Shown: positions 19,045 to 31,856 of the stretch, one piece after another | Numbering within the stretch: the stretch's first letter is position 1 | Layout: each line of letters opens with the position of its first letter | Program-made: the position numbers and the translations under genes | Notes under the pieces: model-generated | Seen by the model: the letters and a program-made list of their open reading frames with translations, nothing else | Databases searched by the model: none | What the model was told of the DNA's origin: nothing | Assembly (NCBI GenBank): GCA_903876865.1 | Contig: CAIRBY010000442.1 | Span: 1-32,040 of the forward strand | Length of the DNA stretch: 32,040 nucleotides | Direction: 5' to 3' | Origin: an uncultured Acidobacteriia bacterium | GTDB lineage: Bacteria; Acidobacteriota; Terriglobia; Bryobacterales; Bryobacteraceae

Positions 19045-21261
19045 CTAGAACGGCTGACCCGGCAGCGGTGCAATCACCGGAGTGATCTTCCCCCAGCCCT
19101 GATCCTTCGCCGTCTTCATATCCTTCACCAGTTGCTCCGGCAGATTCGTCTTCAACGCCGGACGGCCCGGTTGAGTCGCCAGCACCCAACCCACCGCCGC
19201 CATCGTCTGCGAAACCACCTGCATTTCCTTGTAGTCGATCTTGTCCGGAGTGTCCGTCGCCCGATGGTAATCGGGGTGCAGCCCGGTCGTGAAGAACGCG
19301 ATCGGAATGCCCATCTTCGCGAAGTTGTAATGATCGCTGCGGTAGAAGATGCGCTGCCCGTTCGGTTGCGGACCCAGGTTATCGTGCGTCGCATCCGGCG
19401 CCGTCGTGTCGTAGAAGTGATTCAGCTGCAACTTCTGGTAACCGCCGTTCACCGTCTCGATCGTCTTCTCCAGATCGTCGCTCGAGATGTTCGGACCCAC
19501 CACCAGAATCTCGCCCGGATTGACCAGCACATGCGTCGCATCCGAATCCGTGAAGCCCGGCCCCTTCGTGCGCCCGATCATATCCATGTTCAGATTCGCC
19601 ACCACTTTGCTGAGGTCGAGGAACGGGAATTGGTTGAAGTACTGCGAACCCCACAGCCCCTTCTCCTCGCCCGCATTCCACAGGAAAACGATGCTGCGCT
19701 TCGGCCGCATCCCCTTCGCCGCGCCCTCCGCATAGGCCCGCGCCACCGCCAGCAGTCCGGCGCTGCCCGAGCCATCGTCGTCCGCGCCGTTGTTCACATT
19801 GTGACCATCCGGGAGCGGCTGCGCCAGCCCGATGTGGTCCAGGTGCGCGCTGATTACCACGTACTCGTTCTTCAGCACCGGGTCGGAGCCTTCCAGAATG
19901 CCGATCACGTTCTCGGCGTGGTTCGGGTCCGTCTTCACGCTCGCCTTGATGCTGATCTTCTTGGCCGCCGTGAGTTCGAAGGAATCCTGCTTGGCGTTGC
20001 TGCCCGCGGCGTAGAAGACCTGCTGCGCGCTCGCCTTTTCACCCTGGAAAATCGCGTTCGTCATGGCCAGTCCCGCCGTGATGCCCGGGGCCGAGGCGCA
20101 CGCCGCCGGAACCTGCAATTTCGGCACCGTATAGTTCGGGCCGTTCAATCCCGCGCGTCCGCCGCCACCGCCGCCGCCAAATGCAGCCAGTGCCGCGTTG
20201 GGGGCGGCGATCGCCGATAACTGCTGGAAGTTCGCGATCGTCACCACGGCCAGCGCGCCGTTCTGCGCCGCGTACTGTTCCGGCGTCAGAAAGTCCGTGC
20301 AAGCCGTGCCCAGCGGATTCGGAGCCGCCGCGCCACGTCCACCACCACCCGCCGCTGCCGCTTCAGCCGGAGCCGCTGCCGCTGCTCCGCCTGCCGCTGC
20401 TCCGCCTGCCGCTGCTCCACCTGCACCTGCTCCACCCGCTGCCGCACCCGCCGCGCCCGCGCGCCCGGCGCGACCGCCCGCACCGCCCGCCCCGCGACCG
20501 CCGCCGCCGCCCGCCGCCGCAGCCTGCTGCGCCGCCAGTTCCGGGGGAAGTCCGGCCACCACGATGATCTTGCCCTTCACGTCGATGCCTTCATACGGGT
20601 TGATCTTCGTCTTGTTGATCACGTACCCGTTGCCCGCGAACACCAGGTTGCCGGTGACGTCGAAGGCTTCCAACGGCGGTCCGCCGCGTCCGCCCGCGGC
20701 CACGCTCCAATCCTTCGTGTATTCAAAATCCGTGGTCCGCGGACCTGCCGCCGCACCCGCGCCGCCGCGAGCGCCACCACCACCTGCACCAGCGCCCGCG
20801 CCGGCGTTCCCTCCGCCGCCACCGCCGCCGCGCGCGCCCCGTCCGCCTGCCGCCGCCGGCGCCGTGATCGAAGCCTTGCTCAACTCCGGCTGGATCGTCT
20901 TCGCCACCAGCTCCATCGGCATCATGTACGGCTGCAGCGGACCGTTCGTGCCCGCCGTGCTCCCGCCCGGCTTCAGGCCCCATTCCGCCAGGTGGCTGGC
21001 CACATACAGGGCTGCCGTGTCGAACCCGCGCGAGGGCAGGTTGCGGCCTTCCAGCTGATCGGACGCCAGGAAATAAAGATAGATCTTCATCTCCGCGTCC
21101 GTGATCGAATTCGAGTTGCCGTAGGTGGCGACTGCCGGTGCTTCGCCCTTCTTCGCGGCTTTCGGTTTTGCCTGTGGAGCGGAATTGCCGGCCCGCACGG
21201 AAACGAATACCGTGAGAGCCGAAACCGCGAGCAGGGTGGTGCTGAGCATTGTTCGACGCAT
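19045..21261 (-). CDS. Secreted M28 zinc aminopeptidase with Gly/Ala-rich insertions
   Basis: The 738-residue protein has a signal peptide (about 1-27), a PA-like domain (about 200-420) and a C-terminal M28 peptidase (about 440-710). Zinc-site motifs are intact: SAHLDHIG (H473, D475), NNGADDDGSGSAG (the bridging Asp near 494), WNAGEEKGLWGS (E532/E533), NMDMIGR (D560) and the HPDYHRATDTPD region with the last histidine. It should release N-terminal amino acids from peptides in the periplasm or outside. Gly/Ala/Arg-rich inserts occupy about 134-175, 242-315 and 359-371, the largest inside the PA-like domain. Such a length (usual core about 450-550) is unusual. Confidence 0.9.
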   Translation of the reverse strand: MRRTMLSTTLLAVSALTVFVSVRAGNSAPQAKPKAAKKGEAPAVATYGNSNSITDAEMKIYLYFLASDQLEGRNLPSRGFDTAALYVASHLAEWGLKPGGSTAGTNGPLQPYMMPMELVAKTIQPELSKASITAPAAAGGRGARGGGGGGGNAGAGAGAGGGGARGGAGAAAGPRTTDFEYTKDWSVAAGGRGGPPLEAFDVTGNLVFAGNGYVINKTKINPYEGIDVKGKIIVVAGLPPELAAQQAAAAGGGGGRGAGGAGGRAGRAGAAGAAAGGAGAGGAAAGGAAAGGAAAAAPAEAAAAGGGGRGAAAPNPLGTACTDFLTPEQYAAQNGALAVVTIANFQQLSAIAAPNAALAAFGGGGGGGRAGLNGPNYTVPKLQVPAACASAPGITAGLAMTNAIFQGEKASAQQVFYAAGSNAKQDSFELTAAKKISIKASVKTDPNHAENVIGILEGSDPVLKNEYVVISAHLDHIGLAQPLPDGHNVNNGADDDGSGSAGLLAVARAYAEGAAKGMRPKRSIVFLWNAGEEKGLWGSQYFNQFPFLDLSKVVANLNMDMIGRTKGPGFTDSDATHVLVNPGEILVVGPNISSDDLEKTIETVNGGYQKLQLNHFYDTTAPDATHDNLGPQPNGQRIFYRSDHYNFAKMGIPIAFFTTGLHPDYHRATDTPDKIDYKEMQVVSQTMAAVGWVLATQPGRPALKTNLPEQLVKDMKTAKDQGWGKITPVIAPLPGQPF
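20381..20425 (-). repeat. In-frame 15-bp minisatellite inside the M28 gene
   Basis: Three consecutive 15-base units (20381-20395 and 20396-20410 identical, 20411-20425 with two changes) encode AGGAA pentapeptides (residues 280-294). The unit length keeps the reading frame, so copy number can vary without breaking the gene. Confidence 0.85.
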
Positions 21262-21331: not shown

Positions 21332-21991
21332 ATGGAAAATCAGACGATTGGCCTCGTAATTCACGCGGTGGGCAAAACCGGCGTCCTCCACCAGTTGACC
21401 GGTGTCATCGCCCGCCACGAGGGCGATATCACCTCGGTCGAGATCGTCACCAACTGGCCCGACGAAGCCCGCACCTATTTCGAAGTCGTCCTCCCCGGCG
21501 GCAGCGATCCCCTCGTCGAGGAACTGCGCCAACTCCCCATCGTCCGCGCCGTCGAAGTCGTCAAGACTCTCGAAACCATTTACGGAAAGCGCATTATTAT
21601 CATGGGCGGCGGAGCCCAGGTGGGCCAGGTCGCCATCGGCGCCGTCAGCGAAGCCGATCGCCACAATATCCGCGGCGAACACATCTCCGTCGATACCATC
21701 CCGCTCGTGGGCGAGCAGAAACTCGCCGATGCCGTCCGCGGCGTCGCCCGCCTCCCGCGCGCCAAAGCCCTCGTCCTCGCCGGTTCCCTCATGGGCGGCG
21801 ATATCGAACGCGCCGTCCGCGAAGTGCGCGCCCAGGGCCTCGTCGTGATCAGCCTCAACATGGCCGGCAGCGTCCCCGATGCCGCCGATCTCGTCGTCAG
21901 CGACCCCGTGCAAGCCGGTGTCATGGCCGTCATGATCGTCGCCGAAACCGCCAAATTCACCCTCGACCGCCTCAAACGCCGCGTCTTCTAG
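21332..21991 (+). CDS. ACT-domain protein with DUF5612-like C-terminus
   Basis: The 219-residue cytoplasmic protein has an N-terminal ACT domain (about 5-78; GLVIHAVGKTGVLHQLTGVIARHEGDIT), the ligand-binding fold of amino-acid-responsive regulators. A second domain (about 85-215) contains RIIIMGGGAQVGQVAIGAVSEADRHNIRGE, LVLAGSLMGGDIERAVRE and VISLNMAGSVPDAADLVVSDPVQAGVMAVM. This pairing resembles ACT-DUF5612 proteins that I associate mainly with methanogenic archaea. It has no DNA-binding domain. It may sense an amino acid or bind a nucleotide-like ligand. It is a single gene, divergent from M28, followed by a hairpin and the MFS gene. Confidence 0.7.
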   Translation: MENQTIGLVIHAVGKTGVLHQLTGVIARHEGDITSVEIVTNWPDEARTYFEVVLPGGSDPLVEELRQLPIVRAVEVVKTLETIYGKRIIIMGGGAQVGQVAIGAVSEADRHNIRGEHISVDTIPLVGEQKLADAVRGVARLPRAKALVLAGSLMGGDIERAVREVRAQGLVVISLNMAGSVPDAADLVVSDPVQAGVMAVMIVAETAKFTLDRLKRRVF

Positions 21992-22083: not shown

Positions 22084-23256
22084 ATGCCTCTTTCCTCGCG
22101 CGGATTCAGCGCACAACTCTGGGCTCTGGTGGGTGCGACATTTCTGGGCTTCCTCGGCATCGGGACCGTGCTCCCCATGCTCGCGCCCCACATCCGCTAC
22201 GACCTCAAGGGCACGGATCAGGATGTAGGCCTCGTCATCGGAATCTTCTCCTTCGTCGCCCTCGCCGGCCGTCTGATCTCCGGCCCGCTCGCCGATCGCC
22301 GCGGACGCAAAATCTCCTTCCTCACCGGCCTCGGCTGCTGCGGCTTGGCCGGAGCCATCTACCTGCTCCCCATCGGCATGGCCGGCCCCTACCTCGCGCG
22401 CATTTTTCAGGGCATGGGCGAAGCCTTCCTCTATACCGGCGCCGCTTCCTGGGTGGTGGAAATCGCCGGCGTGCAGCGCAGCGGCCAGGCCCTCGGCTAC
22501 CTGAGCAGCGGCATCTGGGGAGGCATCTCCGCCGGTCCCGTGCTCGGCCAGTGGGTCGGCACCTTCGCCCGCGCCGCCGCCCTGCAGATGCTGCTCGCCG
22601 CCGTCGCCTTCCTCGTCCTCACCCAGGTCAAAGAGGTCTATCACCCCGTGCCGCACCACGGCCCGCGCACCTGGCTGCCGCCCGGCATCCTGGGCCCCGG
22701 CATCGCCATCGGCTTCGTGAACGTGCAATACCCCGTGATTGCCGGCTTCCTGATTCTCCACCTGAAAGCGCACGGCAACTCCGGCCCCGCCGCCTTCTCC
22801 GCTTATGCCGGGACCATCCTGCTCTCGCGCTTCTTCCTCGGCGGCCTGCCCGACCGCATCGCGCCCGCCATCACCTTCTTCGGCGGCCTCAGTTGCATGG
22901 CCGTCGGCCTGCTCCTCCTCGCCAGCGGACCTTCGCCCACGCTCGCCGTCATCGCCGGCGCCATCCTCGGCTTCGGCTTCTCCTTCCCCTGGACCGCCGT
23001 CGTCTCCACCGTGATTCGCCGCACCCACAGCAGCAAACGCGGCTCGTCCGTCGGCGTGCTCACCGCCTTCTACGATCTCTTCGTGGGCGTCAGTTCCTTC
23101 ACCGCCGGAGCCGTCGCGCATCAGTGGGGCTATGGCGCGGCCTTCGTGATGGCCGCGCTCGCGCTCGTCGCCGCCGCCATCGCCGGCCGCTACGTCTTTT
23201 TCGGTCAAGCCGAAGTCGAACTGCCCCGCGTCGCCGCTACCCTGCCGGGTCGATAA
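22084..23256 (+). CDS. Major facilitator superfamily transporter
   Basis: The 390-residue protein has about 12 hydrophobic spans. The MFS loop 2-3 motif is clear: GPLADRRGRKISF near 68-80. A second-half segment (RFFLGGLPDRIAPA, about 251-264) is its degenerate counterpart. It is an inner-membrane, proton-coupled exporter or importer of a small molecule; the substrate cannot be read. Its 3' end overlaps the end of the convergent permuted ATP-grasp gene by 20 bases. It is next to, but transcribed towards, the amidoligase cluster, and could export its product, though only proximity supports that. Confidence 0.9.
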   Translation: MPLSSRGFSAQLWALVGATFLGFLGIGTVLPMLAPHIRYDLKGTDQDVGLVIGIFSFVALAGRLISGPLADRRGRKISFLTGLGCCGLAGAIYLLPIGMAGPYLARIFQGMGEAFLYTGAASWVVEIAGVQRSGQALGYLSSGIWGGISAGPVLGQWVGTFARAAALQMLLAAVAFLVLTQVKEVYHPVPHHGPRTWLPPGILGPGIAIGFVNVQYPVIAGFLILHLKAHGNSGPAAFSAYAGTILLSRFFLGGLPDRIAPAITFFGGLSCMAVGLLLLASGPSPTLAVIAGAILGFGFSFPWTAVVSTVIRRTHSSKRGSSVGVLTAFYDLFVGVSSFTAGAVAHQWGYGAAFVMAALALVAAAIAGRYVFFGQAEVELPRVAATLPGR

Positions 23257-24415
23257 AGCTGGCCGAAGCGCCCACCCAGCGGAAGCCCTTGTTGTGATCC
23301 ACGCCCATCTGGGACCCCCGCCCCATGCGGATGATCGTGTTCACCGCGCGTAGCTCGTCCAGCCACACGTACATGATCCGGACCTCCAGTTTCGTCGCGC
23401 CATACGGCGTCTCGATCACCGGCTGGAAATCCACCCGCCGCTGCAGAATATATTGGCTTCGTTCCGCTTCCGGCACCGCCGCCAGTTGCTCCGCCGTCGG
23501 CCCCACAATCACGCCCGATCCCGCGAACGAATAGAGCGGCTTCAGTACGTAATCCTCCGGCCGCCCGATGTCGCCCGCGCGGTCCAGAAACCGCGTCCGC
23601 GGCACCGCCACGTGGTCCAGATAGGGCAAGGAAAACTTGCTCAAGCGGAAAAACCAGTTCGGGTGCCCGGCCCATTCCACATCCAGCTCGTCGCGGAAGT
23701 CGAACTGCATCGCCACCTGCTTGCGCACCAGTTCGTCCACGATCGCCCGGTTGTAGATCCGCTCGATCCGCACCCGCTCGCCATCGCGCCGGTAGAACAG
23801 CTGCCGGCCCTGCTTCTCCACCTCGCCGATGTCCACCGCGCGCACGCCCCACTCCTGCTCCGTGAGCAGAAAATCGTGCCGCGTCTTCTGGTGCGCCGGG
23901 TCGATTTCGAGCAGCACCACGTGGCGCGGATCGTGCCCCGCCACAACCGCCTGCCGCATCTGCGCCCGGTACTCCGCCGCCGTGAGGCCATTCGGAAACG
24001 CGCTCAGCGAATCCGGAATCCCGTACGCCTCGCGATAACTCTCCGCCAGCAGCGGCTGATATCCGTAGAGCGTCGGGAAGCCCTGAATCTCCACCAGTTG
24101 CGGCTGCAGGTTCTCGTCCAGGCCGAAATCCGCCTGCACGAACATCGGCCGCGGGTCCTCGTTCGGCACCCGGTACGCCTCTGGAATCGCCGCGCGCGAA
24201 TCCGCTTCGTATTGTGGATTCGCCAGCAACTGCTCCACCATTTCGCGCCCGTACCGCGACATCTTCTCCACCAGGCTGCCGGGCAGAAAACACGGCGTCT
24301 CGGAGTGGCGGAAGGGCGTGCCCTCGCCGCACCGCGCCTCCAACAGGCCGAGGAAACGCGCGTACTTGGCTTCGCTGAACTCCTGGTTAAACCACTGGCG
24401 CAGTGAGGGAATCAA
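23237..24415 (-). CDS. Circularly permuted ATP-grasp-like ligase
   Basis: About 392 residues from a TTG at 24415. The metal-ligand-like motif MFVQADFGLDENLQPQLVEI plus QGFPTLYGYQ (91-120) comes before the nucleotide-lysine motif DYVLKPLYSFAGSGV (288-302). This is the reverse of normal ATP-grasp order and fits circularly permuted members such as glutathionylspermidine-synthase-like enzymes. RMGRGSQMGVDHNKGFRWVG ends the protein. It likely joins a carboxylate and an amine through an acyl phosphate. The start is chosen because the frame upstream reads through the M29 gene and GGAG lies about 9 bases before the TTG; overlap with M29 is 29 bases. Last gene of the five-gene minus arm. Family assignment is by motif only. 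Confidence 0.65.
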   Translation of the reverse strand: MIPSLRQWFNQEFSEAKYARFLGLLEARCGEGTPFRHSETPCFLPGSLVEKMSRYGREMVEQLLANPQYEADSRAAIPEAYRVPNEDPRPMFVQADFGLDENLQPQLVEIQGFPTLYGYQPLLAESYREAYGIPDSLSAFPNGLTAAEYRAQMRQAVVAGHDPRHVVLLEIDPAHQKTRHDFLLTEQEWGVRAVDIGEVEKQGRQLFYRRDGERVRIERIYNRAIVDELVRKQVAMQFDFRDELDVEWAGHPNWFFRLSKFSLPYLDHVAVPRTRFLDRAGDIGRPEDYVLKPLYSFAGSGVIVGPTAEQLAAVPEAERSQYILQRRVDFQPVIETPYGATKLEVRIMYVWLDELRAVNTIIRMGRGSQMGVDHNKGFRWVGASASFIDPAG

Positions 24416-25439
24416 GCAGGAACGCTCCGCTGTGCATGATCTGCCGCCCGTCGATCCAAATGTCGAAATTGCGGCCCACCACGTCGATATGCGTGGCCGA
24501 ATACCAGTCCGCGCCCGTGTGCGCGCCATAGGGATTGCCGAATGCAATGTGGATTCCCGGAATCTTCTCGTCCTGCAGAATGTTCCCGATCACATCGTGA
24601 ACTCCGGTGTTGGTCCCGATTGCGAACTCGCCCACCCGGTCGCTGTTTTCATCCGTGTGGCAGTAGCGCCAGAACTCCGCCTCCAACTCCTTGTTCGCGC
24701 TCTGCGCCGACTGCAGCCGGCTGTCCGCCACCTCGATCGTCAGCGGATACTCGCGCAGGTCCCCGTACTTCTCGCACAGGTAATCGCCCACCACCCCATC
24801 GATCACGAAGCGCCCGTCCACCCGTTCCGGCGTCGTGAACGTCTCGCCGCCCGGCAGGTTCCCCCACTTGTTCGGGCTGATGATGCCGCTGGTCTTCAGC
24901 CACTTCAGCCGCGGCGTAAACAGTCCCGTGATGTCCGTGCCCGCCGGATTCGTCGCGCGGATCACCTTCGCCGTGCTCGCCATCTGCCACACCAGCGTGC
25001 TGATGCGGTCCACTTCCGTGAAATCCGCGCGCATCCCTTCCAGCATGATCCGCCGGTCGATGTTCACCATGTGCGCGTGCCGCATCTTGCGCCGGTTCAC
25101 CACGTCCGTCATCTGCATCCGCGTGCGCAATTCGTTGGCCTGCGCCTTCACCGCGAAGATGCTCACGTCGCTCGTCTCCATATCGGCCAGCACTTCCGCC
25201 GGCATGTCCGTCAGCGGCCGCGGCGCCATGTCGTCCAGCACGTAGGCGTGGAACGCGAGCTGCTCGCGCTCCAGTTCCCAGGCCAGCGCCGCGCCAATCT
25301 CCAGGCACGCGCGGTCCGTAATCAGCGTGACCTTTTCGTTCGGCTGCACCCGCAGGCAACTCTCCACCGCATTGCGCGCGCCCTCGCGGAAGGCCGGGTC
25401 GAACGGCGTCCGGTGCAGCAGCGAGTTCATCTCCGTCAT
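24387..25439 (-). CDS. M29 family metallo-aminopeptidase
   Basis: The 350-residue protein matches thermophilic aminopeptidases (M29, AmpS/AmpT). Motifs are NLPGGETFTTPE (E199 in the metal site), GEFAIGTN (E271), LQDEKIPGIHIAFG (E291, H297) and YSATHIDVV (H317, D319), all in the usual C-terminal order. It removes N-terminal amino acids using two metal ions, in the cytoplasm, with no signal peptide. The length is slightly below the common 400 or so. The ATG overlaps the TGA of the GCS2 gene (ATGA), so the two are coupled. Within the cluster it may trim or recycle an amide-linked product. Confidence 0.88.
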   Translation of the reverse strand: MTEMNSLLHRTPFDPAFREGARNAVESCLRVQPNEKVTLITDRACLEIGAALAWELEREQLAFHAYVLDDMAPRPLTDMPAEVLADMETSDVSIFAVKAQANELRTRMQMTDVVNRRKMRHAHMVNIDRRIMLEGMRADFTEVDRISTLVWQMASTAKVIRATNPAGTDITGLFTPRLKWLKTSGIISPNKWGNLPGGETFTTPERVDGRFVIDGVVGDYLCEKYGDLREYPLTIEVADSRLQSAQSANKELEAEFWRYCHTDENSDRVGEFAIGTNTGVHDVIGNILQDEKIPGIHIAFGNPYGAHTGADWYSATHIDVVGRNFDIWIDGRQIMHSGAFLLDSLTAPVV

Positions 25440-26590
25440 TGCAACTCTCCCGAGCCCGCCGCGTGAGAGCTCGCCGAAAAGAGCCCGTGTTCCGTTTCCT
25501 GAATCATGTAATCCACTACTTTCTTAAGATCGCCGGTCTCGTGAAACACCCGCAGTTGGCGGTCCGCGCCATTGCCGTGCTCCAGAATCTGGCGGATGTA
25601 AGAGATCTCGTTCCGGCTGCCGAGTTCGTCCACCACATCATCCACGAAGCCCAGAATCTCTTCGATCAACTGCCGCGCCGGCACCTCGGTCTGCTTGCCG
25701 AAATCGATCATCTTGCCGCCCAGCCCGTAGCGCGCTGCCCGCCACTTGTTTTCCATCAGCAGAGACCGGCTGTAGTGCCGGAAGCTCTGGTTCTGTTCGT
25801 GCAGCCGGTACAGTTTCGCGATGATCGCCTGGCACAGCGCTGCAATCGCAATCGTCTCCTCGTACCGCATCGGCATGTCGCACACGCGGAACTCCAGCGT
25901 CGGAAAGTGCGGATGCGGCCGGATGTCCCACCAGATCTTCTTCGCGTTGTCGATGCAGTTGGTGTGAATCAACAGATTCACATAATTCTCGAATTCGCTC
26001 CAGCTCGCGTACAGGTCCGGAATGTTCGTGCGCGGAAACTTGTCGAAGACCTTGCAGCGGTAAGAGCGCAGCCCCGTCTCCATGCCCATCCAGAAGGGCG
26101 AGTTGGCGGAGAGCGCCAATAGGTGCGGCAGAAAATAGCGCGCGCTGTTCATCAGCTGAATCGCCGTCTCGCGATCCTCCACGCCCACGTGCACGTGCAG
26201 CCCGAAAATCAGGTTCGCCCGCGCCACCATCTTGAGATCTTCCACGATCGTGCGGTAGCGGTCGTCCGGGTAGATCTCCTGCTCGCTCCAGCGCGCGAAC
26301 GGATGCGTGCCGCCCGCCGAAAGCCGCAACCCGTTCTGCTTCGCCAGCGAGACAATGTGCTGGCGAATCATCTTCACTTCCGCCTTGGCTTCCTGAATGT
26401 CCGCGCAAATGCCGGTGCCGATTTCGACCACCGACTGGTGCATCTCCGGCTTCACCCGCTCCGCCAGAATCAACTTGCCCTTCTGCAGGATCTCGGCGTG
26501 AATGTGAGAGCGCAGGTCGCGCGTCTCCGGGTCCACCGTCTGGTACTCTTCCTCGATGCCGAGTGTCAGGCTGGGTCTCAAATTCGCCAT
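25436..26590 (-). CDS. GCS2/YbdK-type carboxylate-amine ligase
   Basis: The 384-residue protein belongs to the glutamate-cysteine ligase type 2 family. Motifs are LTLGIEEEYQTVDP at 8-21, GTHPFARW, LHVHVGVEDRE at 131-141, IWWDIRPHPHFPTLEFRVCDMP at 219-240 and ENKWRAARYGL at 280-290. These enzymes form an amide between the gamma (or other) carboxylate of an amino acid and an amine with ATP. E. coli YbdK has weak glutamate-cysteine ligase activity, but most members have unknown substrates. It follows the D-Ala-D-Ala-like ATP-grasp gene by 7 bases and overlaps the M29 gene. It is a core member of the cluster. Confidence 0.92.
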   Translation of the reverse strand: MANLRPSLTLGIEEEYQTVDPETRDLRSHIHAEILQKGKLILAERVKPEMHQSVVEIGTGICADIQEAKAEVKMIRQHIVSLAKQNGLRLSAGGTHPFARWSEQEIYPDDRYRTIVEDLKMVARANLIFGLHVHVGVEDRETAIQLMNSARYFLPHLLALSANSPFWMGMETGLRSYRCKVFDKFPRTNIPDLYASWSEFENYVNLLIHTNCIDNAKKIWWDIRPHPHFPTLEFRVCDMPMRYEETIAIAALCQAIIAKLYRLHEQNQSFRHYSRSLLMENKWRAARYGLGGKMIDFGKQTEVPARQLIEEILGFVDDVVDELGSRNEISYIRQILEHGNGADRQLRVFHETGDLKKVVDYMIQETEHGLFSASSHAAGSGELQ

Positions 26591-26597
26591 ACGAAGC

Positions 26598-27527
26598 TCA
26601 CTTGCCTAAAAACTGCGCCCAGCGGTATTCCAGCGCCTTCGCCGGAGCCAGCGCGCGTTCGATCGCCATCTGCGCCACCGCGTCCACAATCCAGCGGAAG
26701 TTCTCCGCGCCCACCGATTCCAACCCCGCATCCGGCGCCGGATTCATGAAATCGATCGCGTACGGCACGCCGTCCTCCACCGCGAACTCCACCGTGTTCA
26801 GGTCGTAGCCCAGCGCCCGGCACAGCTTCAGGCAATCGCCCGTGATCCGCGCCCCCATCTCCGCCGAGGGCGGGGGATTGCCCGGCACGTAGCGCAGGTG
26901 CGGCGCCGCGCCCGGGTCGTACCGCATGATGTGGACCTTCTCCTGATTCACCACGTAGCAGCGGAAATACTCCTGGAATTTCACCGCCCCCTGCAACGTC
27001 ATGCAGAGCTGCTCGCTCTCATCGTACGCGGCGAACAGTTCCTCCGGATTATCCACCTTGTACACGGATTTCCACCCGCCCCCATCGTGCGGCTTGAGGA
27101 ACGCGGGGAAGCCCACGTAGCCGAAAATACCCTCCCAATCCAGCGGATATTCCAGGTTCCGCATCGAGCGGTCGGTCGTCCCGGTGGGGTGTTTCTTGTG
27201 CGGCAGCAGCACCGTCGGCGGCACCGCCACGCCCAGTTTCCGCGCCAGCGCGTAGTTGAAAAACTTATCGTCCGCGCTCCACCAGAACGGGTTGTTGACC
27301 ACCCGCGTGCCCGTCAGCACCGCGTTCTTCAGATACGAACGGTAGAAAGGAATATCGTGCGAAATGCGGTCGATGATCACATCGTAGCCGCACGGCTCGG
27401 CCATCCGCACGCCGCCTACTTTCAGGTGCTCCGCCGTCACGCCGCTCACGCCCAGCGCGTTGATGTGGTCCACCAGTGCCGGTGGGAAAGACTCTTCCAT
27501 TCCGTAAAGCACGCCGATCTTCGCCAT
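26598..27527 (-). CDS. ATP-grasp ligase, D-Ala-D-Ala ligase/RimK-like
   Basis: The 309-residue protein has an N-terminal Rossmann-like region (MAKIGVLYG), a central ATP-binding half with FPAFLKPHDGGGWKSVYKV (140-158; K145) and VKFQEYFRCYVV. The metal-binding end is VEFAVEDGVPYAIDFMNPAPDAG (246-268), where Glu, Asp259 and Asn262 would bind magnesium. It should activate a carboxylate as acyl phosphate and couple it to an amine. GGGAGAA precedes the ATG by 5 bases and the esterase stop is 11 bases upstream. The frame stays open upstream through the esterase gene, so this ATG is the only sensible start. Confidence 0.87.
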   Translation of the reverse strand: MAKIGVLYGMEESFPPALVDHINALGVSGVTAEHLKVGGVRMAEPCGYDVIIDRISHDIPFYRSYLKNAVLTGTRVVNNPFWWSADDKFFNYALARKLGVAVPPTVLLPHKKHPTGTTDRSMRNLEYPLDWEGIFGYVGFPAFLKPHDGGGWKSVYKVDNPEELFAAYDESEQLCMTLQGAVKFQEYFRCYVVNQEKVHIMRYDPGAAPHLRYVPGNPPPSAEMGARITGDCLKLCRALGYDLNTVEFAVEDGVPYAIDFMNPAPDAGLESVGAENFRWIVDAVAQMAIERALAPAKALEYRWAQFLGK

Positions 27528-27538
27528 ACCGTTCTCCC

Positions 27539-28252
27539 TTAAAGAAAAAACTTCTGCGCCATCTGGTACCACCACGGCCAATCGTGGCCGAAGCCCTCCC
27601 ACACGTCCATCACGTGCGGAATGTGCTTCGTCCCCATTACGTGAGCCATCTTTACATTCTGATCGAAAAGCGGATCCTGGTTGCCGATCGCGAGCACGTA
27701 ATAATTCCTCGCGAAGCGCTCGAAGAACCACGGGTCGCTCAGGTTCGCCAGGTAATCGAGCGGACTGTGCAGATACGCGTTGGTATCGTAATACCCGTCC
27801 AGAAACCGCCGCGGAATGTCGAACGCGCCCGACATGCTCACCGCATACGTCACCAGGTCGGGATGCCGTAGCGCGAAGTTGATCGCGTGGTAGCCGCCGA
27901 AACTGCACCCCGTGGTGCCGAACTGCGGCCAGCTCGTGCGGTGCTGAATGAACGGCGCCACTTCCTGCGTCAGATATGCGTCGAACGCGTTCTGCCGGTG
28001 CAACCGGTCCGCCGGTGCGATGCCGCGGTTGTACCAGGATTCCTGGTCCACCGCGTCCACGCAGATCACCTGCAACTCGCCCCGCTCGATCTTCGGCGCG
28101 AGCGCCTGAATCATCTTCCGCTCTTCATACTCCCAGAACCGCCCTCCCGAAGTCGGGAAGACCACCACCGGAAATCCCCGCTCCCCGAAGGCGAGCAGCT
28201 CCATGTCCCGGTGCAGGGACGGGCTGTACCACTTGATGTATTCTCTGCGCAT
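27539..28252 (-). CDS. PF00756-type esterase/acyltransferase (minus arm)
   Basis: A 237-residue alpha/beta hydrolase. The start MRREYIKWYSPSLHRDMELL is typical of a bacterial esterase subgroup related to esterase D and mycolyltransferases. Nucleophile elbow GCSFGG at 115-120 (S117), charge-relay candidate in IGNQDPLFD (about 189-197), and H223 in EGFGHDWPWW. It is cytoplasmic, with no signal peptide. It could hydrolyse an ester, thioester or formyl bond, or transfer an acyl group. The longer start at 28267 (five more residues) overlaps a TAGCAT hexamer, so 28252 is preferred. First gene of the five-gene minus arm. Confidence 0.85.
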   Translation of the reverse strand: MRREYIKWYSPSLHRDMELLAFGERGFPVVVFPTSGGRFWEYEERKMIQALAPKIERGELQVICVDAVDQESWYNRGIAPADRLHRQNAFDAYLTQEVAPFIQHRTSWPQFGTTGCSFGGYHAINFALRHPDLVTYAVSMSGAFDIPRRFLDGYYDTNAYLHSPLDYLANLSDPWFFERFARNYYVLAIGNQDPLFDQNVKMAHVMGTKHIPHVMDVWEGFGHDWPWWYQMAQKFFL

Positions 28253-28265
28253 TCCCAAGGCTTTC

Positions 28266-28271
28266 ATGCTA
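28266..28271 (-). promoter_or_regulatory. -10 candidate for the minus arm of the amidoligase cluster
   Basis: Minus-strand TAGCAT (28271-28266) lies 13 bases before ATG 28252, predicting a leader of roughly 6-7 nt. It is in the gap shared with the divergent arm. No -35 is clear. Confidence 0.35.
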
Positions 28272-28343
28272 GCCGTTGCGGCACGTGCGGGGCAAGTCCG
28301 CCGGCGTGGCTGTTCCCATTCGTCTCACCCGCCCCCGATAGCC

Positions 28344-28355
28344 TACACTGGGGAA
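28344..28355 (+). promoter_or_regulatory. -10 box of a probable leaderless TTG-start transcript (plus arm)
   Basis: TACACT (28344-28349) is followed by GGGGAA and then the TTG at 28356. The 6-base spacing matches the leaderless geometry seen elsewhere in the window. Confidence 0.45.
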
Positions 28356-29189
28356 TTGTCCGAAACCCGAGCCAAAGATCAGGGGCGCATCCTTCGCCAT
28401 CCGCGCTTTCCCTCGCGCTATCTCTCCACCCCGCGCGACCTCGTCGTCTATCTGCCCCCAGGCTACGACCCCGCAGGCGCCGCCACCTACCCCGTCCTCT
28501 ACCTCCAGGACGGGCAGAATCTCTTCGACCCCGCCACCGCCTTCGCCGGCCACGATTGGGGCGCCGATATCGCGGCCGACCGCCTCATCGCCGCCGCCGC
28601 AATTCAACCCCTGATCATGGTCGGCATCTATAACGCCGGCATCCGCCGCATCTCCGAATACACGCCCACCAAAGACGACCGCCGCCGCAAAGGCGGCAAG
28701 GCCGAACGCTACGCCAAAATGATGGCCCGCGAATTGAAGCCCTTCATCGACCAGCACTACCGCACCCGCCGCGGACCGCAGGATACCGGCGTCGGCGGTT
28801 CCTCGCTCGGCGGCCTCGTCTCGCTCGAAGCCGGACTGCGCTATCCGCGCGTCTTCGGACGCCTCGCCATCCTCTCGCCCTCCGTCTGGTGGCACAACCG
28901 CTCCATCCTCGATCTGGTCCGCGCCTACACCGCCGATCAGCACGCCCGCATCTGGATCGATGCCGGAACCGACGAAGGCGATTCCCCCGCCCAAGTGCGC
29001 TCCGATCTCGAACTGCTCCGCGCCGCCCTCGTCGAACAGGGCTGGCGCGAAGGCTCCGACCTCCGCTGCGAGGTCGTGCAGGGAGCCGGCCACAACGAGT
29101 GGGCCTGGGGCGCCCGCTTCGGCGATGTGTTGCAATATCTCTTTCCCCTCGAACCCGAGCGCCCCGCTCGTAAAGGAGACCGCCAGTGA
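28356..29189 (+). CDS. PF00756-type esterase (plus arm)
   Basis: About 277 residues from a TTG start. LVVYLPPGYDPAGAATYPVLYLQDGQNLFD (29-58) is the classic N-terminal strand set of the esterase D/enterochelin-esterase family. The nucleophile elbow is GGSSLGG at 147-153 (S150), acid candidates lie in IDAGTDEGD (201-209), and H246 is in GAGHNEWAW. There is no signal peptide with this start. The frame is open further upstream (to about 28203), but that reaches into the divergent gene and lacks family similarity. GTGA overlap with the next ATP-grasp gene. It differs from the minus-arm esterase in length and in the sequence around the nucleophile, so the two are not a recent duplication. Confidence 0.85.
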   Translation: MSETRAKDQGRILRHPRFPSRYLSTPRDLVVYLPPGYDPAGAATYPVLYLQDGQNLFDPATAFAGHDWGADIAADRLIAAAAIQPLIMVGIYNAGIRRISEYTPTKDDRRRKGGKAERYAKMMARELKPFIDQHYRTRRGPQDTGVGGSSLGGLVSLEAGLRYPRVFGRLAILSPSVWWHNRSILDLVRAYTADQHARIWIDAGTDEGDSPAQVRSDLELLRAALVEQGWREGSDLRCEVVQGAGHNEWAWGARFGDVLQYLFPLEPERPARKGDRQ

Positions 29190-30385
29190 ACATTCTCTGC
29201 CTCGCAAGTTACGAAAAAGGACACGACTTCCTCCGCGAAGCCAAGCGCCAGGGCGCGGGCGTCATGCTGCTCACCTCGCAGAGCCTCCAGCACACCGCCC
29301 AGTGGCCGCGCGAAAGCATCGACGAGATCTTTTACATGCCCGATACGGACCACGAATGGGTCCGCGCCGATGTCATCAAGGCCGTCAGTTTCCTCGCCCG
29401 CGAGCGCGTCATCGATCGCATCGTCGCCCTTGACGATTTCGACGTCGAACTCGCCGCCGCCCTGCGCGAACACCTCCGCGTCCCCGGCATGGGCGAGACC
29501 ACCGTCCGCCACTTCCGCGATAAGCTCGCCATGCGCCGCAAAGCCCGCGCCTCCGGCCTCCTCGTGCCGGATTTCGTGCACGTGCTCAATCACGCCGCCG
29601 TCGCGCGCTTCATGGAGCATACGCCCGCTCCGTGGGTGCTCAAGCCGCGTTCCATGGCGGGCGCCATCGGCATCCAGAAAATCCATCAGGCCGCGGACCT
29701 CTGGCCCGCCCTCGAACTCCTCGGCGATATGCAGTCCTTCTATCTGCTCGAGCAGTTCGTCGAGGGCGATATCTTCCACGTCGACACCATCGTCTATCAG
29801 GACGAGATCCGCTTCGCCATCGCCTCCGGCTACGGCCGCCCGCCCATGGAGGTCTCCCACGGCGGCGGCATCTTCACCACCAGAATCCTCGAACGCCAGA
29901 GCGAAATCGCCACCGGACTGCTCGCCGAAAACCGGCGCGTGCTCTCCGCCCTCGGCATGGTGCGCGGCGTATCCCACACCGAATTCATTCGCGGCAAAGC
30001 CGATGGCCGCATCTACTTCCTGGAGACTTCCGCCCGCGTCGGTGGCGCCCACATCGTGGAATTAGTCGAAGCGGCCAGCGGCCTGAATTTGTGGGGCGAG
30101 TGGGCCAAGGTCGAAATTGCCGGCGGCGATCACCCCTACGATCCTCCCTCCGTCCGCGAGGATTACGCCGCGCTCCTCATCTCTCTCGCGCGTCAGGAGC
30201 ACCCCGACACCTCCGCCTACCAGGACCCCGAAATCGTCTGGCGCCTCGTGCAGGACCATCACGCCGGCCTGCTCCTCGCCTCGCCCTCCGCCGCCCGCAT
30301 CCGCGACCTTCTGTCGCAGTACGAGACCCGCTTCATGCACGATTTCAACGCCTGGGCTCCCCCCCGCGACAAACCCAGCCACTAG
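29186..30385 (+). CDS. ATP-grasp carboxylate-amine ligase, PurK/biotin-carboxylase-like
   Basis: The 399-residue protein has a pre-ATP-grasp Rossmann domain (MNILCLASYEKGHDFLREAK, about 1-105), the lid-hinge HFRDKLAMRRKARASGLLVPDF (109-130), ATP-lysine motif PWVLKPRSMAGAIGIQKI (149-166), and EQFVEGDIFHVDTIV (189-203). The metal end is FLETSARVGGAHIVELVEAASG (278-299). It belongs with amino-acid and dipeptide ligases. The start is GTG at 29186, overlapping the esterase stop, with a strong AAAGGAG 7 bases upstream. No partner follows it on this strand. Likely catalyses one amide-forming step of the cluster's pathway. Confidence 0.9.
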   Translation: MNILCLASYEKGHDFLREAKRQGAGVMLLTSQSLQHTAQWPRESIDEIFYMPDTDHEWVRADVIKAVSFLARERVIDRIVALDDFDVELAAALREHLRVPGMGETTVRHFRDKLAMRRKARASGLLVPDFVHVLNHAAVARFMEHTPAPWVLKPRSMAGAIGIQKIHQAADLWPALELLGDMQSFYLLEQFVEGDIFHVDTIVYQDEIRFAIASGYGRPPMEVSHGGGIFTTRILERQSEIATGLLAENRRVLSALGMVRGVSHTEFIRGKADGRIYFLETSARVGGAHIVELVEAASGLNLWGEWAKVEIAGGDHPYDPPSVREDYAALLISLARQEHPDTSAYQDPEIVWRLVQDHHAGLLLASPSAARIRDLLSQYETRFMHDFNAWAPPRDKPSH

Positions 30386-30572: not shown

Positions 30573-31856
30573 CTAGTGCGCGCCCGCCAACTCTTCCGCC
30601 GAAATAAACGGCGTCACCAGATTCCCCGCGCCGTCGAATTCGAAATCGACCACCCCTTCGATTTCCAGCAGCGGATTCGCCTCCACCGCCGCCCTCACAT
30701 TCTCGCTCACGCCCAGTCGCGTCAGCTCCATCGTGTTGCGAATCCACCCGAACGTGATCTTGCTCAAATCCAGATGCCCCACCGTCGGCGCCACCCGCTC
30801 GATGCACTCGCGGTCCGTCGGAAAATGAATCGGCGTCCGGATCGCCGCCGGTGTATTCGCCGTCAGCGAGTTGATCCACGTCGGCTGCCAGTCGATGCGG
30901 TTCACCAACCGGTCCGTCACCACATCCGCCATCCCCATCCCCACCGCGCTGTTGTAGGAGTGCTCGCTCAGATTGCGCACGAAAATGCGCTTGAACTTCG
31001 GCGTGTTCGGCCACGGATTGTACTCGCCGCAGACTCCGCGATTGGCCACCTTCGTATCCATCCCCGCGCCCGAAATGTTCTTCCCGATCTCGTCCATGAT
31101 CAGGATGTCCAGGTCCATCGGGATCGTCCCCATCCAGCTCTTCACCAGCGCCAGATTTTCCTCTTCGCGCTGCTCCATCGCTTCCACCGGCACTGCGTCG
31201 ATCTTGCCCGTGTTGTGGTACGCGTCTTCCAGAATCGCCAGCCCGCCCAGAATCTTGCCGCTCTTCAGCACCTGCCGCCCCACGCTCCGAATCACGTGCT
31301 CCAGCCCCAGCGTGTATGCGTAGTTGTGGTACCGCTGCGCGCCCGCGAACTTGCCCAGGCCGATCGCCATCATCTTGAACAATCCGCTCTCGATCTTGCC
31401 CGCGAAATCCGTGTGCCACTTCACCCGGCCCACCAGCATCACGCCGTCGCTCTCATACGCGGTCTTGTCCATGAAGGCTTCGATGCCGTCATCGGTCTTG
31501 CCCAGCGACACCACTTCCAACTGGCTGATCAGCGGGCAGCCCATCGTCGCTTCCGTGATCCCGTAGTTCGCCAGCACCAGCGCCTGCCCCGCCGCATTTC
31601 CCGCGCCGTGGCTCCCCATCGCCGGGAACAGGAACGGCTTCATGCCCTGTTCCTGCCAGTAGCCCACCACATTGCGCACGATCGTGGCGATGCTGTGGAT
31701 CCCGCGGCTGCCCACGCCGATCGCGACGCTTGAGCCCGGCTTCAATCGCGACGCGAATCCGCTCGCCGCCAGCTGCGCGCGCACCTCCGCGGCCACATCG
31801 GGGATCTTTCGATCGGGGAACTTCTGGCGTACGACGAGCAAACGGGGAAATTGCAT
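30573..31856 (-). CDS. LarA-like (DUF2088) protein, possible nickel-pincer isomerase
   Basis: The 427-residue protein matches the lactate-racemase N-terminal (DUF2088) family. VAIGVGSRGIH (44-54) and PAMGSHGAGNAAGQ (78-91) give H83. VKWHTDFAGKIESGLFKMMAIG (145-166) gives H148 and lysines K154/K161, and FAGAQRYHNYAYT gives H177. Their spacing resembles H108, H174, K184 and H200 of LarA, which hold the nickel-pincer nucleotide and do proton/hydride transfer. It probably isomerises a 2-hydroxy acid. No larB, larC or larE is in the window. It is transcribed towards the amidoligase cluster. ATG start, with AAGG 5 bases upstream and TAAAAT 9 bases upstream. Confidence 0.75.
   Translation of the reverse strand: MQFPRLLVVRQKFPDRKIPDVAAEVRAQLAASGFASRLKPGSSVAIGVGSRGIHSIATIVRNVVGYWQEQGMKPFLFPAMGSHGAGNAAGQALVLANYGITEATMGCPLISQLEVVSLGKTDDGIEAFMDKTAYESDGVMLVGRVKWHTDFAGKIESGLFKMMAIGLGKFAGAQRYHNYAYTLGLEHVIRSVGRQVLKSGKILGGLAILEDAYHNTGKIDAVPVEAMEQREEENLALVKSWMGTIPMDLDILIMDEIGKNISGAGMDTKVANRGVCGEYNPWPNTPKFKRIFVRNLSEHSYNSAVGMGMADVVTDRLVNRIDWQPTWINSLTANTPAAIRTPIHFPTDRECIERVAPTVGHLDLSKITFGWIRNTMELTRLGVSENVRAAVEANPLLEIEGVVDFEFDGAGNLVTPFISAEELAGAH

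Follow-up and report, generated by a model that had tools for sequence, protein, structure and literature searches.

The closest described counterpart of the genes considered here is the route from glutathione to glutathionylspermidine (trypanothione), in which a glutamate-amine ligase, an ATP-grasp ligase, a circularly permuted ATP-grasp ligase of the glutathionylspermidine synthetase (GspS) and glutathione synthetase class, and a hydrolase that reverses the product work together. Clusters in which ATP-grasp and GCS2-type ligases stand beside peptidases are reportedly among the predictions of Iyer et al. 2009 (Mol Biosyst 5:1636). The same enzyme classes are encoded in a block of seven adjacent genes, here called A to G, in an uncultured member of the Acidobacteriota. 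The window analysed is the entire contig C442 (32,040 nucleotides, nt) of a 7.3 Mb draft genome, 97% complete, whose nearest named relatives are metagenome-assembled genomes (MAGs) of Bryobacteraceae/Candidatus Solibacter. The conserved core of the block comprises C, D, E, F (or a class-I glutamine amidotransferase-like protein, GATase-like for short) and G (or c3, a distant permuted ATP-grasp protein present next to D in many loci that lack G), with A and B as accessory genes. This conserved and largely co-inherited set joins three amide ligases to hydrolases and marks a clear gap in bacterial metabolism. We lean towards a reading in which the module encodes a cytosolic pathway, independent of carriers and of the ribosome, for the assembly of a short peptide or peptidyl-amine from three to four units, with the hydrolases trimming or recycling it.

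Gene order was surveyed in 169 non-redundant loci, more than 5% apart in D, from Acidobacteriota, from Ignavibacteria and other Bacteroidota, and from Cloacimonetes. The order C-D-E-F-G, or a sub-order of it, is kept in nearly all of them and essentially never breaks: in every locus with both genes of a pair, D comes ahead of E (108 loci), E ahead of F (54) and F ahead of G (35), with median gaps of 55–118 nt between core genes. The distance matrices of C, D, E, F and G are correlated (Spearman 0.69–0.82; none of 500 permutations reached such values), as expected if the genes are inherited together. The first-pass annotation, which was made from the sequence of the window, had suggested a synteny search and named rare co-occurrence of homologs elsewhere as the mark of a chance grouping; the search was run, and the homologs do co-occur, in conserved order. 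That annotation had described a cluster in one genome. The block is real, and it is no local oddity but a module widespread in both Acidobacteriota and Bacteroidota. The idea that unrelated genes have been thrown together by chance could appeal to the accessory status of A and B alone; for C, D, E, F and G it is refuted by the conserved order, the co-occurrence in genomes and the correlated distance matrices.

Co-occurrence was counted in 297 Acidobacteriota genomes, with D called at identities of at least 40% and E at no less than 55%. D is present in 78 of them (26% of sampled species), and 10 more hold a distant relative. E is found in 65 of the 78 D genomes, versus 2 of the 219 others; G or c3 is found in 72 of the 78, versus 4 of 219. 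In a second survey, of 198 genomes from the phylum containing an Ignavibacteria genome (taken as Bacteroidota in the sense of the Genome Taxonomy Database), 72 carry D (36% of sampled species). Genomic distance is no bar to co-occurrence: G163 carries its D and G genes about 0.9 Mb apart, and one family mostly has D and E on separate contigs. The module is carried at least in part by two culturable strains, Bryocella elongata DSM 22489 and Silvibacterium bohemicum S15.

Two positions in the module are filled by alternative proteins. G is found in 36 of the 78 Acidobacteriota genomes with D and c3 in 42; 30 have G only, 36 c3 only and six both, so that G and c3 replace each other, near-exclusively, in one slot. 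The slot between E and G holds F in 35 loci and a GATase-like protein in 16, and never both. The GATase-like proteins of Bacteroidota and of Acidobacteriota are homologous (hhalign probability 99.4), and both groups retain Cys and H-x-E motifs. That two unrelated proteins of hydrolase type share one slot suggests an amide-cleaving step.

Such a step would also fit a route resembling the Puu pathway of amine use, in which E would add a gamma-glutamyl group to an amine as protection, and F or the glutaminase-like protein would later remove it. E is a ligase of the YbdK family, and the alternative to F is a homolog of the class-I GATases, the fold class of PuuD, with its Cys and H-x-E motifs in place. 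However, the surroundings show no recurrent gene for an oxidase, a dehydrogenase or an amine transporter, and the further ligases D and G are left unexplained; a Puu-like route is therefore improbable.

The assignment of E (positions 25436–26590, minus strand, 384 amino acids, aa) is supported by database scores: PF04107 (GCS2) matches at 230 bits, and the NCBIfam models PRK13515 and TIGR02050 at 563.9 (cut-off 371) and 325 bits (cut-off 176). Aligned with the YbdK structures 1r8g and 1tt4, E shares the GIExE, HVHVG and WDIRP..E-R motifs, all intact, and on these grounds it is classed as a YbdK-family carboxylate-amine ligase. F (24387–25439, minus strand, 350 aa) is an M29-family aminopeptidase (PF02073, 38.3 bits, cut-off 27) that finds AmpS (1zjc) in a profile search with an E-value of 3e-7. 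M29 enzymes bind metal through two Glu, two His and an Asp and also have a Tyr; the corresponding residues of F, E199, E271, H297, Y304, H317 and D319, are invariant among 11 relatives; the first four align with AmpS, while H317 and D319 are presumably metal-site residues, being placed as such by their H-x-D motif. A NicX-type dioxygenase was considered for F and rejected: the alignment with NicX (7cn3) is weak, and F keeps the M29 Glu residues that are absent from it.

G (23237–24415, minus strand, 392 aa) found no match in a Pfam scan, which took in the seven genes of the block and three neighbours, and was placed by fold. Its AlphaFold model (mean predicted local distance difference test score, pLDDT, 91) matches YjfC/YgiC at Z 25.9, GspS at Z 25.5 and (homo)glutathione synthetases at Z about 24–25, over 343–363 residues; the best match, to E. 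coli YgiC/YjfC, aligns about 345 residues at 14% identity. On the evidence of the model, G is placed with YgiC/YjfC, glutathionylspermidine synthetase and eukaryotic-type glutathione synthetase in the circularly permuted class; the first-pass annotation had called it a permuted ATP-grasp protein, and that call is supported. YgiC and YjfC are reported to be peptide-spermidine ligases, and the fungal enzyme Cp1B, which matches G at Z 21.9, couples the dicarboxylate epoxysuccinate to an amino acid in the E-64 pathway (PMC12568646). From Cp1B comes the active-site signature R-x-D...E-x-N (PMC12568646), of which G retains D96 and E109; the position two residues ahead of D96 holds no conserved Arg, and Gln111 replaces the Asn. 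All four signature residues (R, D, E and N) are kept in c3, a distant homolog of G (hhalign probability 95). A c3-type protein is also encoded elsewhere in the window genome (G000:C268:940-2271, locus L224), and two genomes of the same family that lack D and E retain a c3 homolog; c3 thus has a role beyond the module.

D (26598–27527, minus strand, 309 aa) likewise had no Pfam match. Its AlphaFold model (pLDDT 90) superposes on RimK (5zct) with Z 23.0 and a root-mean-square deviation of 2.8 over 264 of 309 residues, and E247, D259 and N262 are conserved. D scores 21.3 bits against the curated RimK family TIGR00768, under the cut-off of 143, and is for that reason filed in the RimK/LysX class and not as RimK itself. 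A second ligase-hydrolase operon, apparently uncharacterised, came to light among distant relatives of D (about 28–34% identity): at L073-L081 these follow a gene for an S51-type peptidase-like protein and one for a Fes-like esterase, in the order S51-esterase-ATP-grasp in 9 of 9 loci.

The fold of D brings in the strongest of the rival explanations, protein tagging in the style of RimK, an enzyme that adds residues to ribosomal protein S6. Here some cellular protein would receive one or a few residues from the ligases, at its C-terminus or on a side chain, and F or the GATase-like protein would remove them. The nearest folds, RimK and LysX/ArgX (Z about 21–23), do act on protein ends or on a carrier protein; the module, moreover, passes down the lineages largely as one unit, and genes for export or resistance do not recur nearby. 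Identity with these enzymes is 12–19%, and the module has no S6 or LysW partner. Against tagging, no gene for a target or carrier protein recurs beside the module, and esterases and a ligase of the GspS/glutathione synthetase class are more typical of small molecules. Tagging is accordingly judged unlikely.

The neighbourhood of the core adds little of its own. A survey of extra genes of at least 90 aa beside the core, which left out smaller open reading frames (ORFs) outside the arm, showed nothing specific to the module: no gene for an exporter, transporter, resistance factor, regulator, carrier or peptide is recurrent, and the neighbours that do recur are generic (an ATP-binding cassette ATPase, a response regulator and an aldo-keto reductase). 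Within the C-D-E-F-G arm of the window itself, junctions of −29 to +11 nt leave no room for a precursor peptide gene of the kind that graspetide clusters carry beside their ATP-grasp ligase. Adenylation and carrier domains, which the first-pass annotation had reported as absent, did not turn up in the Pfam scan of the block and its three neighbours, so that the block does not qualify as a non-ribosomal peptide synthetase (NRPS) system.

A compatible solute or storage compound would be another use for ligases of this kind: a dipeptide amide akin to N-acetylglutaminylglutamine amide, which the ligases would make and the linked peptidase would degrade. The combination of ligase and peptidase is consistent with this, as are the wide distribution and co-inheritance of the genes, and the GATase-like protein could provide ammonia for the amide. 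But that protein alternates with a peptidase, which cannot provide ammonia, and no gene for salt or osmotic response recurs. As to storage, cyanophycin genes flank only two loci, the related Bacteroidota L203 and L204, and cphA shows no enrichment in the D genomes of the 198-genome sample (9 of 72, versus 13 of 126 others). A general link to cyanophycin is ruled out on these counts, and the solute or storage explanation as a whole is given a low probability. In L203 (4031-17419) and L204 (3715-17465), a full-length cyanophycin synthetase and a cyanophycinase adjoin the module, which there consists of B, an M17 leucyl aminopeptidase, A, C, D, E, a GATase-like protein and G, and a beta-aspartyl peptidase comes after. 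Two further candidates were also set aside: an anti-phage defence system, as none of the seven genes had a PADLOC match; and the permuted ATP-grasp tagging system known from its alpha-E, transglutaminase and Anbu genes, none of which is among the window genes scanned.

The preferred explanation, a pathway to a short peptide or peptidyl-amine, draws these observations together, and the peptide-like amide suggested in the first-pass annotation gains support from them. Given that no carrier or adenylation domain was found, and that the arm has no room for a precursor gene, the ligases probably act on free small molecules; their classes match those of glutathione and glutathionylspermidine synthesis, and for this reason a short peptide or peptidyl-amine with amide-cleaving turnover is proposed. 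From gene identity, the folds of D and G, conservation, linkage and slot replacement, we infer substrates, steps and product as follows. The part proposed for E is to couple glutamate, probably by way of the gamma-carboxyl, to an amine or an amino acid, and the part proposed for D is the addition of an amino acid. The carboxylate that remains would be converted by G (by c3 in other lineages) to an acyl phosphate and capped with an amine or an amino acid, the chemistry of the synthetases for glutathione, glutathionylspermidine and peptide-spermidine (YgiC/YjfC). An amide bond may be the target of F, or of the class-I glutaminase-like alternative, with removal of glutamate or recycling of the product as the outcome; esterase C, joined by B where it is present, may act on an acyl group of that compound by hydrolysis or transfer. 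The order put forward in the first-pass annotation, of successive ligations, esterase release and aminopeptidase trimming, is conjectural, as gene order is no guide to the order of reactions.

Several observations weigh against this proposal. The Fisher tests of co-occurrence took no account of the relatedness of the genomes, so that their very small values overstate independence and are not to be read at face value; conserved gene order is a separate support. E was not found in 13 of the 78 Acidobacteriota genomes with D; a group within one genus (G049, G112, G147 and G217) keeps D, with no E, F or G found; and in 32 of the 169 loci no partner adjoins D. As D occurs without E, F and G, the genes are not strictly interdependent, and the four genomes of that genus suggest that D and C are able to act without the rest. 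At L041, the single locus read from this group, C adjoins D. Finally, the chemistry of G may differ from that of its relatives, since it lacks the Arg and Asn of the signature.

If the proposal holds, the bacteria that carry the core, in at least two phyla, probably share a small peptide-like compound. It is possible, and here we are more tentative, that this is an undescribed peptide-based cofactor or protectant used across large parts of Acidobacteriota and Bacteroidota, with a reach like that of bacillithiol and with two slots of its pathway variably filled. Co-occurrence and replacement in any case define the genes to delete or assay: C, D, E, F or the GATase-like protein, and G or c3.

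Comparison with described systems sets the module apart from each. The glutathionylspermidine route uses GshA where the module has the YbdK-family ligase E; D is nearest to RimK/LysX, G is without two signature residues, and the esterases and M29 peptidase are extra. The window genome gave no match to GshB (TIGR01380) and does encode BshC, of bacillithiol synthesis; the module is therefore not an ordinary glutathione route. E. coli YgiC and YjfC are single enzymes and, to our knowledge, do not occur in such a module. In the E-64 pathway, as here, stand-alone ligases stand in for an NRPS, and Cp1B shares the fold class of G; that pathway is fungal, however, with other partners, and the active site of Cp1B (R-D-E-N) differs from that of G. 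Nothing specific to this gene combination was found in the literature searched, which did not extend to Iyer et al. 2009, and a paper on CDC123-type ATP-grasp proteins does not mention these partner genes. Amidoligase clusters are known as a general idea, of which the module would be a widely distributed variant.

C (27539–28267, minus strand, 242 aa; Pfam 44 bits) and B (approximately 28356–29189, plus strand, about 277 aa; Pfam Esterase, 109 bits) are predicted, from Ser and His motifs, to be Ser-type esterases or hydrolases of the PF00756 type. In C the Ser motif GCSFGG and the His motif GHDWPWW are conserved. C precedes D in 78 of the 169 loci (median gap 60 nt), and B is divergent from C in 30. 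B probably starts with TTG at 28356, preceded by GGGGA; the longest ORF begins at 28203. A (29186–30385, plus strand, 399 aa, GTG start) is an ATP-grasp ligase (ATP-grasp_4, 28.6 bits, cut-off 27). It was found linked to D in six loci only: the window, L092 and L093 (both Bryobacteraceae), L132, L203 and L204. The Bacteroidota copies, in L203 and L204, are full-length orthologs, 43–44% identical and directly upstream of C, and A is on that account a real but optional partner. The four amide ligases of the first-pass annotation are thus all encoded in the window, of which three belong to the core.

The seven genes lie where they had been placed, and Pfam, NCBIfam and fold matches bear out the identities given to them. 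They form two arms, B-A on the plus strand and C-D-E-F-G on the minus strand, on either side of an 88-nt region (28268–28355) that is presumed, from the coordinates alone, to be a two-way promoter; the divergent arrangement of B and C is seen again in relatives. Junctions had been described as overlaps or gaps of 4–11 bases. This is so for B/A (4-nt overlap), C/D (gap of 11), D/E (gap of 7) and E/F (4-nt overlap), but F and G overlap by 29 nt, G starting at a TTG that is supported by the agreement of its product (MIPSLRQ..) with the N-termini of relatives. The nearest relative with all seven genes, a Candidatus Solibacter MAG (L092), has them in the same order, A-B-C-D-E-F-G-H; between it and the window the ratio of nonsynonymous to synonymous substitution rates (dN/dS) is 0.09–0.23 across the seven genes, all of which are intact and under purifying selection.

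The block has varied neighbours in the window. A gene convergent with A (30573–31856, minus strand) encodes a LarA-like, nickel-pincer-cofactor-dependent isomerase of NCBIfam group 22 (443.7 bits, cut-off 400), with no match in the stretches L092 and L093. Beyond G, an ORF of 738 aa (19045–21261, minus strand) looks M28 peptidase-like by eye and is interrupted by a very long low-complexity stretch rich in Gly, Ala and Arg. Between this ORF and G lie a regulator-like gene (21332–21991, plus strand), in which an ACT domain is fused to DUF5612 (227 bits), and the adjoining gene, for a major facilitator superfamily transporter (22084–23256).

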